A stretch of DNA of 64,000 bases from the NCBI RefSeq assembly GCF_006385175.1, contig NZ_VFIY01000018.1, positions 248,001 through 312,000 on the forward strand. The letters run 5' to 3'. This document shows, piece by piece, positions 12,238 through 17,658 of this stretch; the first letter of the stretch is position 1, and each line of letters begins with the position of its first letter. Source of the DNA: Emcibacter nanhaiensis. GTDB taxonomy: Bacteria > Pseudomonadota > Alphaproteobacteria > Sphingomonadales > Emcibacteraceae. The notes beneath the pieces are model-generated. The model saw nothing but the letters and a program-made list of their open reading frames with translations, had not been told where the DNA came from and ran no database searches. The translations under genes and the position numbers were made by a program.

Positions 12238-13818
12238 TTATTCTTTCGCAGTAAACTCCAGAGACTGGCGCGCCGTACGCAGGCTGTGGCGGCGGCGCAC
12301 CGGGATCGCAAGGAAGCGGTTGAAGGCGGCCAGTGCCTCGCCCGTCCACCCCGCCCCGGGAAAGGCCGCCATTTCCTCCTCCAGCGCCAGCAGGGTCTTC
12401 AGGATATGGCAGGAGACAATCGGTTCCGGCAAGCCGTGATCGAGCAGAAAGTCATGAGCCTGCGCGAGGAAGGCTGCGGCCTCCGGCACCTTCCATGCGG
12501 TCACATCCAGGTCACGGTCGAGGTAACCGGCATTACGCCCGGCGAAGCAGGCCATTTGCAACAGCCCCTGCGGCCACAGCTCAGGGGTTTCCTCACACAA
12601 ATGACGCACCGCATTGGAAAAGGTCAGGCCGTGGGTGAAGTCCAGCCAGTCCACATTGTCGGTGATTTTGTTGCGGGTGCGGGCGGCGAGATCCGTATCA
12701 AAGTGAAGCAGGTTGCGCACGAGGGCGGCAAAGAGCAGCTGGTAAAGCTCCTTTTCCGCCATAGCTGAAGACGCAATCGCCTCCAATATCCGGTTGGCCG
12801 GCTTCGCCCATAGTTCGCCCACGGAGAGAGCCTCGCCGGACTGGCTCCAGCCCTCCAGCGCCGGACCGTAAGCCCTGAATTCGGGGATCAGGTCCTCCCG
12901 CCGCGCATAGACCAGGCTGCGCACCATGGTTCTCAGCACCGGGGCAAGATAATCCGCGCCGATCCTGTCCAGCAACTGGCCGGCCTTGACCACATAAATG
13001 GCGGAATGGCCGAAGTCGTTGTAATGGGCCAGCGCCGCCCGGGCGAGAACGGGGCGAAGCTCGGCATAGGACAAGCCTTCCGCCAACGCGCCGTTCATCA
13101 GGGCAACGGCCTCTGCTTCATTCTCCGCCTCCACCGCCGCCAGGAATTTTTCTGCCTCAAACGGCTCCACCCGGTCGGCGTAGGGGAAGCCATCATAGCG
13201 CTGGCTGTCCCAGGCGAAATGACTGACCGCCTCCAGCGCCGTGACCAGGGCGGCATCGTCGCGCCCTTCCGCTTCATATTTCTCCGTCAGCGCCAGCCAG
13301 TCGGCGGCGGCGGCAAAAGCATGGCTCATGCCATATTCAAATTGCAGGTAACATCTGTTGATCATTTCCCCCACGGCCCGGGCATAATTTCCGCCCGCGG
13401 CCTTGAAGCGGGCCAGTTCCCGCCCCATCCGGTCATATTCATAGCGATGGAAGCAGGCATAAAGATTATCCAGGGCCCGGGACTGGGCCGCGGTCCGGTC
13501 GGGATCGGCCAGATCAACCAGGATTGCTTCCCCCTCAATTTTCACCGCATAGGACCTGAGCTGGTCGCCGCCGACAACCGTCTCGCCGCTGTCCAGGTCG
13601 AACTTCCAGTTATGCCAGTTGCAAGTGAGTCGGCAGTCATCGGACATATGCCCTTCGGACAGGGGATAACCCTGGTGGGGACAACGATTGTTTACGGCAA
13701 AGAGACGATCGCCTGTCTGCAGCACCAGGATCTGCTTGCCGCCCTTGCGGAAAACCAGTTTGCCTTTCTCGTGCAGGTCGGCGGCCTTTCCCGCCGGAAT
13801 CCAGCATTCCTCAGTCAT
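12238..13818 (-). CDS. Rieske [2Fe-2S] protein with large unknown C-terminal domain
   Basis: The first 105 or so residues are a complete Rieske domain with ligands Cys46/His48 in CPHQG and Cys66/His69 in CNWHNWKFD, like the ferredoxin-type NirD/BphA3 class. The remaining 420 residues are helical, lack membrane segments, and contain repeated His/Asp/Glu-bearing stretches (AHYNDFGHSAIYVVKAG, VSHFAWDSQRYDG, DFTHGLTFSNAVRHL). These remind me weakly of questin-oxidase-like (DUF4243) proteins, but this is from memory and uncertain. The 526-residue fusion suggests a reductive or oxygenase-like enzyme with a built-in electron donor. It follows a 39-codon ORF by 30 bases. Two TAAAG-N6-CTTTA sites lie at the promoter, the same motif as at the SufR-like regulator gene. 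Confidence 0.8.
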   Translation of the reverse strand: MTEECWIPAGKAADLHEKGKLVFRKGGKQILVLQTGDRLFAVNNRCPHQGYPLSEGHMSDDCRLTCNWHNWKFDLDSGETVVGGDQLRSYAVKIEGEAILVDLADPDRTAAQSRALDNLYACFHRYEYDRMGRELARFKAAGGNYARAVGEMINRCYLQFEYGMSHAFAAAADWLALTEKYEAEGRDDAALVTALEAVSHFAWDSQRYDGFPYADRVEPFEAEKFLAAVEAENEAEAVALMNGALAEGLSYAELRPVLARAALAHYNDFGHSAIYVVKAGQLLDRIGADYLAPVLRTMVRSLVYARREDLIPEFRAYGPALEGWSQSGEALSVGELWAKPANRILEAIASSAMAEKELYQLLFAALVRNLLHFDTDLAARTRNKITDNVDWLDFTHGLTFSNAVRHLCEETPELWPQGLLQMACFAGRNAGYLDRDLDVTAWKVPEAAAFLAQAHDFLLDHGLPEPIVSCHILKTLLALEEEMAAFPGAGWTGEALAAFNRFLAIPVRRRHSLRTARQSLEFTAKE

Positions 13819-13848: not shown

Positions 13849-13968
13849 TCATTTCTGATCCCAGGGTCCAACGTCTTTCGGCGCCCGCGGCGGGAAAAAG
13901 CCGATGATTTTTTCCAGGATTTCATCAAGCCATTCGGCAGAGGCATGTGGTGCTGCAGTCATAAACAT
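13849..13968 (-). CDS. Small ORF, 39 residues, leading the Rieske operon
   Basis: An ORF of 39 codons starting ATG at 13968 with a clear ribosome site (AAGGA, 6 bases from the ATG) and ending 30 bases before the Rieske start. The peptide begins MFMTAAPHASAEWLDEILEK and ends in a Pro-rich, charged tail (FFPPRAPKDVGPWDQK); residues 10-25 would form an acidic amphipathic helix. No Cys, no signal peptide, no family recognised. Position between the promoter and the Rieske gene suggests a co-translated subunit or a leader peptide. A second in-frame ATG (residue 3) is possible. Confidence 0.55.
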   Translation of the reverse strand: MFMTAAPHASAEWLDEILEKIIGFFPPRAPKDVGPWDQK

Positions 13969-13978
13969 AGCATTTCCT

Positions 13979-14002
13979 TTAATAAAGCTTTTTCTTTATT
14001 AA
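13979..14002. promoter_or_regulatory. operator-like inverted repeat, site 1 (TAAAG-N6-CTTTA)
   Basis: TTAATAAAG and CTTTATTAA form perfect 9-bp arms with a 6-base spacer. The core TAAAG-N6-CTTTA (13983-13998) is the same as in the sites at 14029-14044 and 16972-16987. Seen on the minus strand it overlaps the predicted transcription start and leader of the 39-codon ORF/Rieske operon and ends just before its ribosome site. As RNA it could also fold as a hairpin. Confidence 0.55.
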
Positions 14003-14005
14003 TTA

Positions 14006-14033
14006 GTTATACCTCCCGAATTATTTTGTAAAG
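14006..14033 (-). promoter_or_regulatory. predicted promoter of the Rieske operon
   Basis: On the minus strand CTTTAC (14033-14028) and TATAAC (14011-14006) are spaced 16 bases, a reasonable housekeeping promoter. The -35 box lies inside operator site 2 and the start point would fall at the edge of site 1, a layout fit for repression. Confidence 0.5.
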
Positions 14034-14049
14034 TATTTTCTTTAATTAT
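14028..14049. promoter_or_regulatory. operator-like site 2, 22-bp copy of the regulator-promoter sequence
   Basis: Contains TAAAG-TATTTT-CTTTA (14029-14044). The 22 bases 14028-14049 are identical to 16971-16992 in the promoter of the SufR-like regulator gene. It overlaps the -35 element of the Rieske operon promoter and is 46 bp, centre to centre, from site 1. Confidence 0.6.
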
Positions 14050-14133
14050 TGTATTTCGTTTTATATACAAACACTTAAAAATACACCTCCACTAAACTGC
14101 AGATTTATAATTACTCTTAACTGCAATTTATTC

Positions 14134-14161
14134 TTGACTTGAAAATGATAACGCATATTAA
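14134..14161 (+). promoter_or_regulatory. promoter with Fur-like box for the outer-membrane/flavin operon
   Basis: TTGACT (14134-14139) and TATTAA (14156-14161) with a 16-base spacer. The spacer and -10 contain GAAAATGATAACGCATATT (14141-14159), which matches 13 of 19 positions of the E. coli Fur consensus, with a good left half and a poor right half. Repression by an iron-responsive Fur/Mur-type protein is inferred from this overlap. Confidence 0.5.
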
Positions 14162-14194
14162 CTGCATAAAAATATATTAGGAGATTTTATTAAA

Positions 14195-15082
14195 ATGAAA
14201 CGCCTGCTTACTCTCACCCTGGCTCTTTGCGGCCTGACCACTTCTTCATACGCCGACGAAAGCCTGTGGGGCGTGGTCAAAGGCGCCGAACCCCTGCCCA
14301 AGGGTGCACAGATGATCAGCATCCACGCCATTCACCGCTCTGACAAAGGCGCCGGTGAATATAAAGCCACCGATTACCAGGTCGAGGTCTCTAAAGGCTT
14401 CACCAACAAACTGACCGGCTCTTTATACCTGCTGGGCATGGGCATTAACACCAGCGGCATCCGCATCGACGGCTATATGCCCGCCGATCGTGATTTTGAT
14501 TTCAAGCTGACCGGTTTCGAACTGGCCCTGAAGTATAACTTCCTGAGCCCGGCCCTGGATGATATCGGCCTGTCCACATACCTCAGCCTGAGCCGCACCT
14601 GGGTCGATCCCCACTCCGGTCAGTCCAAGAACAAAACCACCGGCGAACTGAAACTGCTGCTGCAGAAATATTTCCTGGACGGTCAGCTGATCACCGCCGC
14701 CAATGTCGGCATCGAAGTGACCAGCGCCACCCGCGGTGAGATCGCAGGCCTGCCGGAAGATTTTGAGTGGCCCACCTTCCCGGAAATGGAAATCGGCCTG
14801 AACGGTGGCGCAGCTGTGTCCTACCGCTTTGCCGACAACTTCTATTTTGGCGTGGAAGCGGTATATGACGCCGAATATGAAACCGAAGTCGGCCAGGAGC
14901 GCTGGTCCATCTTTGCCGGTCCGAACCTGCATTACGGCGGCCAGAAATGGTGGGCAACCCTGTCCTGGCTGCGCCAGCTGAAAGGCGGCGGGGAAATGTT
15001 CGACGCCCAGAGCTATGACAACCTGCACCTGATCGAGAAAACCCGCGACGAGTTCCGCCTCAAATTCGGGTTCAGCTTCTAA
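14195..15082 (+). CDS. Outer-membrane beta-barrel protein (DUF6662-like)
   Basis: Predicted outer-membrane protein of 295 residues. It has a Sec signal peptide ending near residue 20 (SSYA before DES), alternating amphipathic strands throughout, and a C-terminal phenylalanine (LKFGFSF), the usual beta-barrel assembly signal. The composition (many aromatic and Gly residues, strand turns at DGYMPADRDF and VDPHSG) resembles the DUF6662 group of putative barrels. It heads a coupled operon with an FMN-binding protein, ApbE and a His-rich membrane protein, and its promoter holds a Fur-like box, so a role in the uptake of, or electron delivery to, a metal or other acceptor is a reasonable inference. 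Ribosome site TAGGAG precedes the ATG. Confidence 0.75.
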   Translation: MKRLLTLTLALCGLTTSSYADESLWGVVKGAEPLPKGAQMISIHAIHRSDKGAGEYKATDYQVEVSKGFTNKLTGSLYLLGMGINTSGIRIDGYMPADRDFDFKLTGFELALKYNFLSPALDDIGLSTYLSLSRTWVDPHSGQSKNKTTGELKLLLQKYFLDGQLITAANVGIEVTSATRGEIAGLPEDFEWPTFPEMEIGLNGGAAVSYRFADNFYFGVEAVYDAEYETEVGQERWSIFAGPNLHYGGQKWWATLSWLRQLKGGGEMFDAQSYDNLHLIEKTRDEFRLKFGFSF

Positions 15083-15093
15083 GAGGTAACTAC

Positions 15094-15648
15094 ATGAGCT
15101 TCAAACAACAGCTTTTACTGGTACCTGCGGCGACGGTTTTGACCGTCGCCCCCTCCTTTTCTGCGGAATATCTGACCCTGCAGCAGGCCCAGCAGGCGGC
15201 GTTCCCGGCTGCTGACAGCTTCGTTTCCACCGAGCTGACCCTGACCAAGGACCAGAAAAAACAGATCAAAAAGGCCAGCGGCGTGCGACAGCGCTGGGAT
15301 GTGCAGAAAGTCTGGCGGGCCGAGAAAGCCGGCGAATTCCTGGGCTGGTTCATCGTTGACGATGTGGTCGGCAAACATGAATTCATCACCTATGGCGCCG
15401 CCCTCACCCCGGACGGCGCCGTCAAATCCATAGACATTATGATCTATCAGGAAAGTTACGGCGGTCAGGTCCGGGAAGAAGACTGGCAGAAGAATTTTGA
15501 CGGCAAAACCTCCGACAGCCGCCTCAAACTGGGCGACGACATCCCCAACATTGCCGGGGCGACCCTGTCCTGCCGCAATGTCACGGACGGCGTGAAACGG
15601 CTGCTGGCCATTCATGACCTGTTCCTGACGTCTGACAGGACTTCATGA
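15094..15648 (+). CDS. Exported FMN-binding domain protein
   Basis: Predicted periplasmic flavoprotein of 184 residues with a Sec signal (cleavage after SFSA, about residue 24). The C-terminal half is an FMN-binding domain: residues 151-160 include AGATLS, a variant of the S/D-G-A-T-x-x-S/T flavinylation motif in which ApbE attaches FMN through a phosphoester bond, here probably to Thr157. The gene for ApbE overlaps its stop codon (ATGA), which strongly supports this being the flavinylated substrate. The first position of the motif is Ala rather than Ser or Asp, which is unusual but occurs near a degenerate position. It probably carries electrons across the periplasm. Confidence 0.85.
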   Translation: MSFKQQLLLVPAATVLTVAPSFSAEYLTLQQAQQAAFPAADSFVSTELTLTKDQKKQIKKASGVRQRWDVQKVWRAEKAGEFLGWFIVDDVVGKHEFITYGAALTPDGAVKSIDIMIYQESYGGQVREEDWQKNFDGKTSDSRLKLGDDIPNIAGATLSCRNVTDGVKRLLAIHDLFLTSDRTS

Positions 15649-16496
15649 CCGGCGGGAGCGATATCAGCAACGACAATTTCCCCAAGCGCCGGATGCGTCC
15701 GGCGCTTGGCTGTTTTACGGAGGTCGGCATCTGGGACGGTCCGGACCCAGAGCAGGCCTTCGCATCTGCCTATGCCGCCATCAATGAAATCGAACAATTG
15801 ATGTCCTTTCACAACCCCGACAGCGAGCTGAGCCGCCTCAACAAGGCCGGTGCCCGCGGCACCACAGTCTCCTCCCCCACCTTGCGTGTTCTCCGCCTCG
15901 CCCGGGCCCTCACCGCAAAAAGCAACGACCGTTTCAACTGCACCGTCGGCGGCACCCTGGTGCGCGCCGGTGCCCTGCCTGATCAGGATTTCGGAGATGT
16001 TCTCCGTCGTGGAGACGCCTCCGATATCCTGATTGACGGCAACCATGTCGCACTGCGCCGACCGGTGCTGGTCACCCTCGATGGCATCGCCAAGGGATTT
16101 GCCGTCGACCGGGCCGTCCGCGCATTAAAGGCTTGCGGAGTGAGCTCCGGATGGGTAAATGCAGGGGGTGACCTGAGAGTATTTGGAGAGCATTTGTTGA
16201 CTATAGAGCGACGAGATGAGCACGGCAGCCCCCTTCCTTGGGGTCAATTGGGCAATGCCGCCCTGGCCACCTCCCAGATCGGACGGCCGGATCCGGAGCG
16301 TTTCCCGTCTATGCTGGTCGGCGCCAATGGTCCCTCCCAACACTCCGGTTCCGTCACCATCCTGGCGCGACAGGCCTGGCGCGCTGACGCCCTGACCAAA
16401 ATCGCCGCCAGCCTGCAGGGCCCGGACCTGAAAACGGAGATTGAGCGTCTCGGCGGCGTTCTGGCCGCAGATCCTGAAAGCGGAGAGGTCTGGTGA
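15645..16496 (+). CDS. apbE: FAD:protein FMN transferase ApbE
   Basis: Transfers FMN from FAD to a Thr or Ser of exported flavoproteins. The 283-residue protein has the ApbE hallmarks ending in MSFHNPDSELSRLN (about residues 48-61), the LDGIAKGFAVDRAV block around residue 145-158 and VNAGGDLRVFG after it, then the C-terminal Mg-binding region (HSGSVTI and WRADALTKIA). It lacks an obvious lipobox or signal sequence, so it may act in the cytoplasm on the precursor or be exported otherwise. The start overlaps the FMN-binding gene (ATGA) and the end overlaps the next gene (GTGA), so all three are translationally coupled. Confidence 0.92.
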   Translation: MTGGSDISNDNFPKRRMRPALGCFTEVGIWDGPDPEQAFASAYAAINEIEQLMSFHNPDSELSRLNKAGARGTTVSSPTLRVLRLARALTAKSNDRFNCTVGGTLVRAGALPDQDFGDVLRRGDASDILIDGNHVALRRPVLVTLDGIAKGFAVDRAVRALKACGVSSGWVNAGGDLRVFGEHLLTIERRDEHGSPLPWGQLGNAALATSQIGRPDPERFPSMLVGANGPSQHSGSVTILARQAWRADALTKIAASLQGPDLKTEIERLGGVLAADPESGEVW

Positions 16497-16945
16497 AAGG
16501 TTACCCCGCTTTTGTCCACAGCCTGACCTGGATCCTGATGCTCGGCCTGTTGATCAGCGGCCTGTTGATCCTGCCCGGCATGCTGGACCTGAAATTTGAA
16601 ATAGATGTGCCGTTCCGCCTGCGCGGGGAATGGACCCTGATTATGGCCGCCTCCCACGCCCTGTTCGCCTTCCTCGCCGTCGGCCTGGTCGGGGCGCTGC
16701 TGCCCGTGCACATCCGCCTGAATTTGCGCCGCCATATCAAGCGCCTCAGCGGCTTTACCCTGCTCGGGGCGACGTCGCTACTCATCCTTACCGCCCTCGG
16801 CATCTATTATTTCGGTGATCCGTATCTGAGCCACCTGTCCAGCCTGATCCATACTGTCGTCGGCCTGGTCATGGGACTGGTTTTCATCCTCCATGCCCTG
16901 AATATCGGCCTGAGCCGCCTCTCCTCCGGTCCCGAGGCACAATAA
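16493..16945 (+). CDS. Four-helix His-rich membrane protein (cytochrome b-like, DUF4405-like)
   Basis: Predicted inner-membrane protein of 150 residues with four helices (about residues 9-29, 48-70, 84-106 and 113-137). Histidines lie within or at helix ends (His9, His55, His73, His114, His120, His134), arranged as in small b-type cytochromes, so bis-His haem binding is plausible. The start is GTG overlapping the ApbE stop. In other bacteria, ApbE and FMN-binding genes pair with such membrane proteins that pass quinol electrons outward; this would be the membrane donor to the FMN-binding protein. Haem ligation is inferred, not shown. Confidence 0.65.
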   Translation: MKGYPAFVHSLTWILMLGLLISGLLILPGMLDLKFEIDVPFRLRGEWTLIMAASHALFAFLAVGLVGALLPVHIRLNLRRHIKRLSGFTLLGATSLLILTALGIYYFGDPYLSHLSSLIHTVVGLVMGLVFILHALNIGLSRLSSGPEAQ

Positions 16946-16962
16946 GCCCTTTGATCTTTCCC

Positions 16963-16992
16963 TTTACTTAGTAAAGTATTTTCTTTAATTAT
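16963..16992 (+). promoter_or_regulatory. promoter and operator site 3 of the SufR-like regulator gene
   Basis: TTTACT (16963-16968) and TAATTA (16986-16991) with a 17-base spacer. The operator core TAAAG-TATTTT-CTTTA (16972-16987) fills the spacer, and 16971-16992 is identical to 14028-14049. A second overlapping palindrome, CTTTAC-TTA-GTAAAG, lies at 16962-16976. The -10 ends 7 bases before the ATG, so the transcript may be leaderless. The arrangement predicts autorepression. Confidence 0.6.
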
Positions 16993-16998
16993 GTAGAC

Positions 16999-17658
16999 AT
17001 GAAAGACAAGGCCGTTAAAAGCAAAGAAAAAATCCTGAACCTTCTGAAGACGGAAGGTCCCCGGGAAGCGCCTGCCCTGGCGGAGCGTCTGGGAGTCACC
17101 GCCATGGCGGTGCGCCAGCACCTCTATGAGCTGGAAAAAGACGGCATTGTCGAGGCCCTGTGCTGCCCGCGCCCCAAGGGCCGTCCGGGCAAGGAATGGC
17201 ACCTGACCGAAAAGTCAAACGAACTGTTCCCGGACAGCCATGCGGAGTTTGCCGTCGGCCTGATCCATTCCGTCCGCGACGCCTTTGGCGAGGACGGCAT
17301 GGACAAGCTGCTTGACCTGCGGGCGGCGGAACAGGTTGCCAGCTACCGCGCTGAAATCGGCGAGCAGCGCGACCTGAAAAAACGGCTCGATAAACTGGCC
17401 GAGCTCAGGACCCGCGAAGGCTATATGGCGGATGTTCTGCCCGGTGATGAGCCGGACCAGTTTCTGCTGGTGGAAAATAACTGCCCCGTCTGCGAAGCGG
17501 CCCGGGAATGCAGCGGCATCTGCGCCAGGGAACTGCAGGTATTCGAGGAACTGATGGGCGACGATGTCGCCATATTCCGCACCGAACATATCACCAGGGG
17601 CGCGCGGCGCTGTGCCTATGTGGTGCGCCCTTATGACCCGAAAGCCGGGGCGCAATAA
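16999..17658 (+). CDS. SufR-like Cys-containing winged-helix transcriptional regulator
   Basis: DNA-binding regulator of 219 residues. Residues 8-70 form an ArsR/DeoR-type winged helix (AERLGVTAMAVRQHLYELEKDG). The C-terminal region carries Cys162, Cys165, Cys171, Cys175 and Cys205 in the pattern CPVC-x5-C-x3-C and RRCAYVV, as in SufR-type regulators that bind an iron-sulphur cluster or metal. No ribosome site is visible before the ATG. Its promoter has the same TAAAG-N6-CTTTA operator as the Rieske operon, making that operon and itself the likely targets. Ligand (Fe-S cluster, metal or redox signal) is inferred. It is convergent with the downstream SDR gene. Confidence 0.82.
   Translation: MKDKAVKSKEKILNLLKTEGPREAPALAERLGVTAMAVRQHLYELEKDGIVEALCCPRPKGRPGKEWHLTEKSNELFPDSHAEFAVGLIHSVRDAFGEDGMDKLLDLRAAEQVASYRAEIGEQRDLKKRLDKLAELRTREGYMADVLPGDEPDQFLLVENNCPVCEAARECSGICARELQVFEELMGDDVAIFRTEHITRGARRCAYVVRPYDPKAGAQ

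Follow-up and report, generated by a model that had tools for sequence, protein, structure and literature searches.

Organization of the locus and its operator sites

The stretch analyzed here, referred to as the window, comprises 64,000 nucleotides of Emcibacter nanhaiensis DNA (contig NZ_VFIY01000018.1). It contains the gene of a regulator related to SufR, here called REG, an operon for a Rieske enzyme on the opposite strand, and three palindromes of the form TAAAG-N6-CTTTA. REG is encoded on the plus strand (16999..17658) and combines a winged helix with the C-terminal cysteines C162, C165, C171, C175, and C205. The gene of the Rieske enzyme lies on the minus strand (12238..13818) and encodes a 526-aa protein, predicted to be a fusion of a Rieske [2Fe-2S] domain (about residues 1-105) and a BTG13/questin-oxidase-like helical domain (about residues 106-526). 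On the comparisons described below, the locus is a predicted conserved local regulon of the SufR-like regulator.

Site 1 (13979..14002, exact core at 13983-13998) reads TTAATAAAG-N6-CTTTATTAA and lies by the start of the Rieske operon, site 2 (14028..14049, core at 14029-14044) is on an element that resembles a -35 in the minus-strand promoter of the Rieske operon, and site 3 (16971..16992, core at 16972-16987) is inside the promoter-like region of the regulator. An earlier note on this DNA had claimed that sites 2 and 3 are identical over 22 bp, both with TAAAG-N6-CTTTA, and that a third palindrome lies 46 bp from site 2; exact comparison bore this out, with 22/22 bp identical and the identity ending abruptly on both flanks. 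The placement of site 3 between -35 and -10 and of sites 1 and 2 at the start and -35 of the Rieske operon also fitted when read by eye. Site 3 is within the 17-nt spacer from TTTACT (16963-16968) to TAATTA (16986-16991) ahead of the regulator, site 2 overlaps the -35-like TTTACA (14027-14032), and site 1 is just beyond the -10-like TATAAC (14006-14011), the spacer of this Rieske promoter being only 15 nt. A simple promoter scan called neither the regulator nor the Rieske promoter.

The window holds three exact TAAAG-N6-CTTTA sites against 0.01 expected by chance, and none of 100 shuffles reached three. Genome-wide (3.96 Mb), these three were the only exact sites, and the control pattern read backwards occurred 12 times. 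One-mismatch matches were rarer than those of the backwards control (58 vs 271 per strand); therefore, the relaxed motif was uninformative by itself, and a wider regulon in the E. nanhaiensis genome was rejected. Seven one-mismatch genomic sites were inspected. An EamA transporter gene has one of them, TATAGAAAAAACTTTA (G000:C18:108593, L169), at 116 bp upstream, and another is upstream of a gene that reads by eye as plsX; both were treated as chance. An RNA element was also rejected, as no Rfam match was obtained at gathering scores and the fold of 16930-17010 (z -2.79) was attributed to the palindrome itself.

Conservation of the operator in related genomes

Counting E. nanhaiensis itself, a search of 60 genomes detected REG in 18 (E 1e-5), and a search of 289 genomes of the class detected it in 38 (E 1e-20). 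Apart from E. nanhaiensis, 54 genomes had matches; stretches were taken from every one of them, giving 55 REG loci, some of them cut by contig ends. For motif counts, 54 upstream regions were used, namely 53 loci and the window, with L042 and L099 left out at contig edges. The earlier note had proposed scanning this and related genomes for the motif next to homologues of both genes, and the scan found it conserved. The core AAAG-N6-CTTT was exact in 24/54 upstream regions of REG, with 14 other spacers giving 0-1/54 and shuffled regions giving a mean of 0.52 and a maximum of 3 (200 shuffles). With at most one mismatch, it was present in 43/54 regions, compared with a shuffled mean of 8.58 and maximum of 16 (100 shuffles). 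The exact sites were distributed over 14/24 Rieske regions, 0/1 Rieske plus MFS regions, 5/7 MFS regions, and 5/22 others, in context classes that predate the recognition of further MFS genes. From 60 sites selected for no more than one core mismatch, the consensus tAAAG-N6-CTTTa with an A/T-rich spacer was obtained. Among 28 distances between paired sites, 14 were at 44-47 bp, four at 26 bp, and four at 21 bp, and a counterpart of site 1 was found near the Rieske gene in relatives. Relatives with adjacent, divergent REG and fusion genes have a single shared set of sites between them, and at L078, where other genes separate the two, sites with one or two mismatches are present at both.

Palindromes could also arise by chance or as promoter-element features of AT-rich intergenic DNA, given that the arms are A/T rich, that they overlap -35/-10-like elements, and that one-mismatch matches are not enriched genome-wide. 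However, exact matches were enriched at spacer 6 only, reversed arms (GAAA/TTTC) occurred in 0/54 regions at N6 and in at most 5/54 (at N8), and every exact site in the genome is at this locus. Chance was thus considered very improbable and was set aside on the spacer specificity.

The fusion gene was detected in 28 of the 289 class genomes, again including E. nanhaiensis. Of the other 27 genomes, 11 have it near REG, eight have REG elsewhere, and eight have no REG, which a search at E 0.001 confirmed. The unlinked fusion gene had a site with no more than one mismatch within 60 bp upstream in 6/8 genomes with REG and in 0/8 without it (Fisher p 0.007), and the six near sites were all 41-51 bp upstream. 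The genomes with REG elsewhere and no near site were those of L131 and L135, the gene at L135 being broken by a stop. The neighbours of the fusion gene in genomes without REG showed no shared pathway by eye, with no domain search made. From these sequence comparisons, both genes appear to keep the motif at their orthologues, and its occurrence tends to follow that of REG. A different regulator that owns the sites and happens to control both genes would fit the abundance of one-mismatch sites in the genome, but it was judged quite unlikely in view of the contrast between genomes with and without REG and because REG has a site of its own, with at most one mismatch, in 43 of the 54 upstream regions.

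The fusion gene was beside REG or within 2 kb in 25/55 loci, of which 24 are divergent and one (L104) is on the same strand; other genes lie between the two in two of the divergent loci (L077 and L078). An MFS transporter gene was beside REG or in the operon of the fusion gene in 14/55 loci, and a stand-alone PF14027 questin oxidase was divergent to REG in 2/55 (L080 and L081). At least one of these three partners was present in 39/55 loci. Among the 60 genomes, 18 have REG and 17 have the fusion gene, with 15 having both (Fisher 1.8e-9, kinship ignored). On a tree of 55 REG rows, from which L047 (81 aa) was left out, the contexts were clustered, with three changes for Rieske and two for MFS against shuffled means of 11.6 and 10.4; L046 was a distant outlier, and 25/52 inner branches were well supported. 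The local regulon of REG and the Rieske operon proposed in the earlier note was upheld in part, in that the motif stands at orthologues of both genes; it needs correcting for the MFS transporter, which is also a frequent partner in relatives. In relatives, REG probably controls this transporter as well.

Several observations weigh against the proposed regulon. One-mismatch matches occurred at other spacers in 5-27/54 regions, with 27 at N0, and 30/54 REG genes had no exact upstream site, 11/54 not even a one-mismatch site. A REG homologue outside the class, in the 12.6-kb locus L028 (Pseudoduganella), showed no exact AAAG-N6-CTTT in that locus. The 60-bp cut used for unlinked fusion genes was set after the data were seen; within -300, the counts were 6/8 with REG vs 1/8 without it (a match at -173), and by genus they were 3/5 vs 0/6 (p 0.06). 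The contig-edge loci L147 and L148, with no REG detected, were excluded from that comparison; at -16 in L148, a one-mismatch match overlaps the ribosome-binding stretch. In addition, 16/55 loci had none of the three partners beside REG, four of these 16 coming from genomes with the fusion gene at another place, and nothing in the E. nanhaiensis genome is closely similar to the MFS gene, the best match having 22% identity. As a separate observation, L028 belongs to Pseudoduganella violaceinigra, and its REG homologue comes after an open reading frame (ORF) that reads by eye as an MFS transporter.

Relation of the regulator to SufR

The earlier note had called REG SufR-like. The winged helix and the SufR-type cysteines were found as claimed, but the score of REG against the SufR model TIGR02702 (132.5 bits over residues 8-209) was below the curated cut-off of 178.8, and the gene is not at suf. 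REG was the sole near full-length TIGR02702 match in the genome. C162, C175, and C205 were cysteine in 55 of 56 aligned rows, one row being a truncated contig-end copy; C171 was cysteine in 54 rows and C165 in 46.

In Rv1460, C203, C216, and C244 are required, with a spacing of x12/x27 (PMC6034842), and REG matches this three-cysteine arrangement as C162-x12-C175-x29-C205, with x29 in place of x27. The pattern C-x12-C-x13-C-x14-C described for SufR (PMC8593673) is not found in REG, which has no cysteine between C175 and C205 and has C165 and C171 instead. The ligands named for Synechocystis SufR (C164, C171, and C206; PMC13421787) do not fit the x12 spacing of REG and Rv1460. Like SufR of cyanobacteria, Rv1460, and the Streptomyces avermitilis protein, REG has an N-terminal winged helix and a palindrome with an N6 spacer at its own promoter. 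Unlike the SufR site, CAAC-N6-GTTG (PMC8593673; PMC13421787), its half-sites are AAAG/CTTT, often as two or three sites, and it is accompanied by oxygenase and transporter genes rather than by suf. The sufB gene is on contig C5, right after an ORF named by eye as an Rrf2/IscR-type protein, and the 5.5-kb sufB stretch had no exact AAAG-N6-CTTT. A role of REG as the suf regulator was rejected because suf is elsewhere, behind the Rrf2-type gene, and lacks an exact site. By the four features tested (score, four-cysteine pattern, suf adjacency, and site), REG appears to be SufR-like, yet not SufR.

An alternative is that REG binds the sites without being an iron-sulfur (Fe-S) sensor; its cysteines would hold zinc or disulfides, or its C-terminal domain would bind the substrate of the enzyme, giving a ligand-released repressor. 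Oxygenase and transporter genes, the partners of REG, are the usual company of substrate-sensing repressors, and the score under the SufR cut-off agrees with this alternative. The same is true of the missing third cysteine of the four-cysteine pattern (PMC8593673), in place of which C165 and C171 are conserved. However, C162, C175, and C205 stand in nearly the Rv1460 arrangement (x12, then 29 vs 27) in all but one row, and the match to the SufR model is near full-length. A non-Fe-S regulator was accordingly kept as a real but lesser possibility, and we infer Fe-S cluster sensing by REG from its analogy with SufR.

The Rieske-BTG13-fold fusion enzyme

The target had been named a Rieske enzyme in the earlier note, which holds for its Rieske domain (PF00355, 2.3e-17) but not for the ring-hydroxylating class. 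The Rieske ligands C46, H48, C66, and H69 were invariant in 25 sequences. The catalytic domain Ring_hydroxyl_A (PF00848) was absent from the Pfam hits, listed to E 1 for the fusion protein and to E 10 for four homologues, HMMER filters dropping most weak matches. The protein shares the Rieske domain with Rieske oxygenases and ferredoxins but differs from them in its catalytic part, which gave no Ring_hydroxyl_A match and is predicted to have another fold.

Structure models were obtained with a mean pLDDT of 81.6 for the whole protein and 81.1 for the C-terminal part. With VIA-align, the C-terminal model matched BTG13 (7y3w/x/y) at Z 16.2-16.3 over 330-332 residues (7y3x at Z 16.3, rmsd 4.3, 330 residues), 8yxs at Z 15.5, and the hydroquinone dioxygenase PaD at Z 13.2-13.3, on a scale where a helical model may score as high as about Z 14 even if nothing clearly matches it. 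The remaining four matches above Z 8 covered 87-91 residues each, and among the 50 matches listed none outside the questin-oxidase-like family aligned more than 138 residues. Hence, the C-terminal 420 aa are predicted to have the fold of the BTG13/questin-oxidase-like dioxygenases (7y3w/x/y, 8yxs, 8z4q/r; Z 13.2-16.3, 325-334 aligned residues), from which the fusion differs in lacking a PF14027 sequence match, in carrying a Rieske domain in front, and in being bacterial.

Other searches gave little. Foldseek alone listed nothing for the C-terminal part below E 0.001, the matches listed in another Foldseek search were to Rieske domains, and BTG13 emerged from the second look with VIA-align. The whole-protein profile had no match in PDB beyond the Rieske part, and the C-terminal profile gave nothing meaningful. 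PF14027 matched neither the fusion protein nor any other protein of the genome, hhalign of the fusion protein against the L080/L081 questin oxidases was not significant, and PHROGs gave only a weak, chance-level match (E 0.83). The iron ligands of BTG13 are four histidines and a carboxylated lysine. H166, H265, H271, H396, H471, and K474 were invariant in 25 fusion sequences and are candidates for comparison with these ligands. On the models, the enzyme is best described as a Rieske-BTG13-fold fusion and not as a ring-hydroxylating Rieske oxygenase.

The stand-alone questin-oxidase-like genes are at L080:3281-4387 and L081:5414-6463, with AAAG-N6-CTTT-type sites between gene and REG. Since such a gene stands beside REG with sites upstream of REG in both loci, they give an independent hint, which suggests that REG is associated with this enzyme class.

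Proposed regulon

Based on operator conservation and spacing, co-occurrence with REG, gene partners, cysteine conservation, and fold similarity, the locus is likely to be a local, autoregulated regulon in which a SufR-related repressor acts through AAAG-N6-CTTT palindromes on its own promoter and on the divergent operon that encodes a small peptide together with the Rieske-BTG13-fold enzyme. Dimeric REG would bind the palindromes; at site 3 it would repress its own promoter, and at sites 1 and 2 it would shut off the operon of the small peptide and the oxygenase. By comparison with SufR, the invariant cysteines may carry a [4Fe-4S] cluster, the holo form would repress, and damage, loss, or oxidation of the cluster would free the operators. 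More tentatively, the inducer might be a redox-active aromatic or quinone that is broken down by the oxygenase and expelled by the transporter. A role in detoxification is a guess from the partners of REG.

It is also conceivable that REG activates the Rieske operon instead of repressing it, as some Fe-S regulators do, for example ChlR, which is termed an activator (PMC13421787). However, the sites, as read by eye, cover the -35, the spacer, and the start region, where a bound protein would block RNA polymerase, and SufR itself is described as a repressor (PMC8593673). Activation was therefore considered unlikely, and repression is preferred.

A broader view would make this a widespread alphaproteobacterial stress module. 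A SufR-superfamily Fe-S-cluster repressor would sense redox-active aromatics (quinones or anthraquinone-like antibiotics) and switch on both an MFS exporter and a new class of self-contained Rieske-BTG13-fold ring-cleaving dioxygenase; in the Emcibacter family, the small GPWxxK peptide at the head of the operon would be a substrate or subunit of the enzyme. This view is speculative and rather doubtful. Within the narrower, repressed regulon, a SufR relative with three of the cluster cysteines, found in 38/289 class genomes, appears to control non-suf targets via a different operator, and its target enzyme would join an electron-carrying Rieske domain to a fold known from ring-cleaving dioxygenases. 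Among the papers listed in literature searches, none dealt with a regulon of REG and the Rieske fusion, and a search for its motif found no paper. With the regulator, its operator, and its targets delimited to this degree, the core claim can be tested directly.

Flavinylation operon and small open reading frames

The earlier note had placed the Rieske operon as the divergent partner of REG, but it missed a 39-aa ORF and a four-gene flavinylation operon. Sites 2 and 3 enclose this operon (14195-16945), which keeps REG and the Rieske gene from being adjacent. On the plus strand, the operon encodes a DUF6662 protein (14195..15082; PF20367, 4e-88), an FMN_bind protein with AGATLS near its C terminus (15094..15648; PF04205, 1.6e-7), an ApbE flavin transferase (15645..16496; PF02424, 1.6e-31), and a membrane protein that is weakly cytochrome b561-like (16493..16945; PF01292, E 0.021, 15.1 bits, below the cut-off of 30.1). 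The flavinylation genes were found in none of the 55 other REG loci (E 1e-5), and the DUF6662 gene was present in 2/60 genomes, E. nanhaiensis included, the other copy having 30% identity.

Sites 2 and 3 form a 22-bp direct repeat that bounds the operon. Given this repeat and the shared set of sites in relatives with adjacent genes, an insertion of the flavinylation operon between REG and the fusion gene, with a copying of the operator that left both promoters intact, would be the simplest explanation. The TAATTAT stretch from the promoter-like region of the regulator is present at site 2 as well, so that site 2 might drive or control the inserted operon. The row of FMN_bind, ApbE, and membrane protein genes resembles the ApbE/FMN-binding extracytosolic electron-transfer clusters taken for comparison (PMC8238504). 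It differs from them in the DUF6662 gene and in lying inside a REG regulon, which was seen only here among the loci examined. A TTGACT and AATGATAAC stretch at 14134-14160, ahead of the flavinylation operon, is faintly Fur-box-like by eye.

The 39-aa ORF (13849..13968, minus strand) ends in GPWDQK and opens the Rieske operon. ORFs resembling it, with GPWxx[KR] at the end, were found in L030-L034 and, by eye in a partial view, in L148; that of L036 seems to have decayed, and none was seen in L035. In the last 20 codons of these ORFs, differences lean to third positions (178 vs 138 and 104). This place upstream of the Rieske gene is taken in L038, L043, and L045, which represent other families of the order, by a small ORF of another kind that looks MGxDxxWIEYxxI-like by eye (MIQDKAWGEYGRI in L045).

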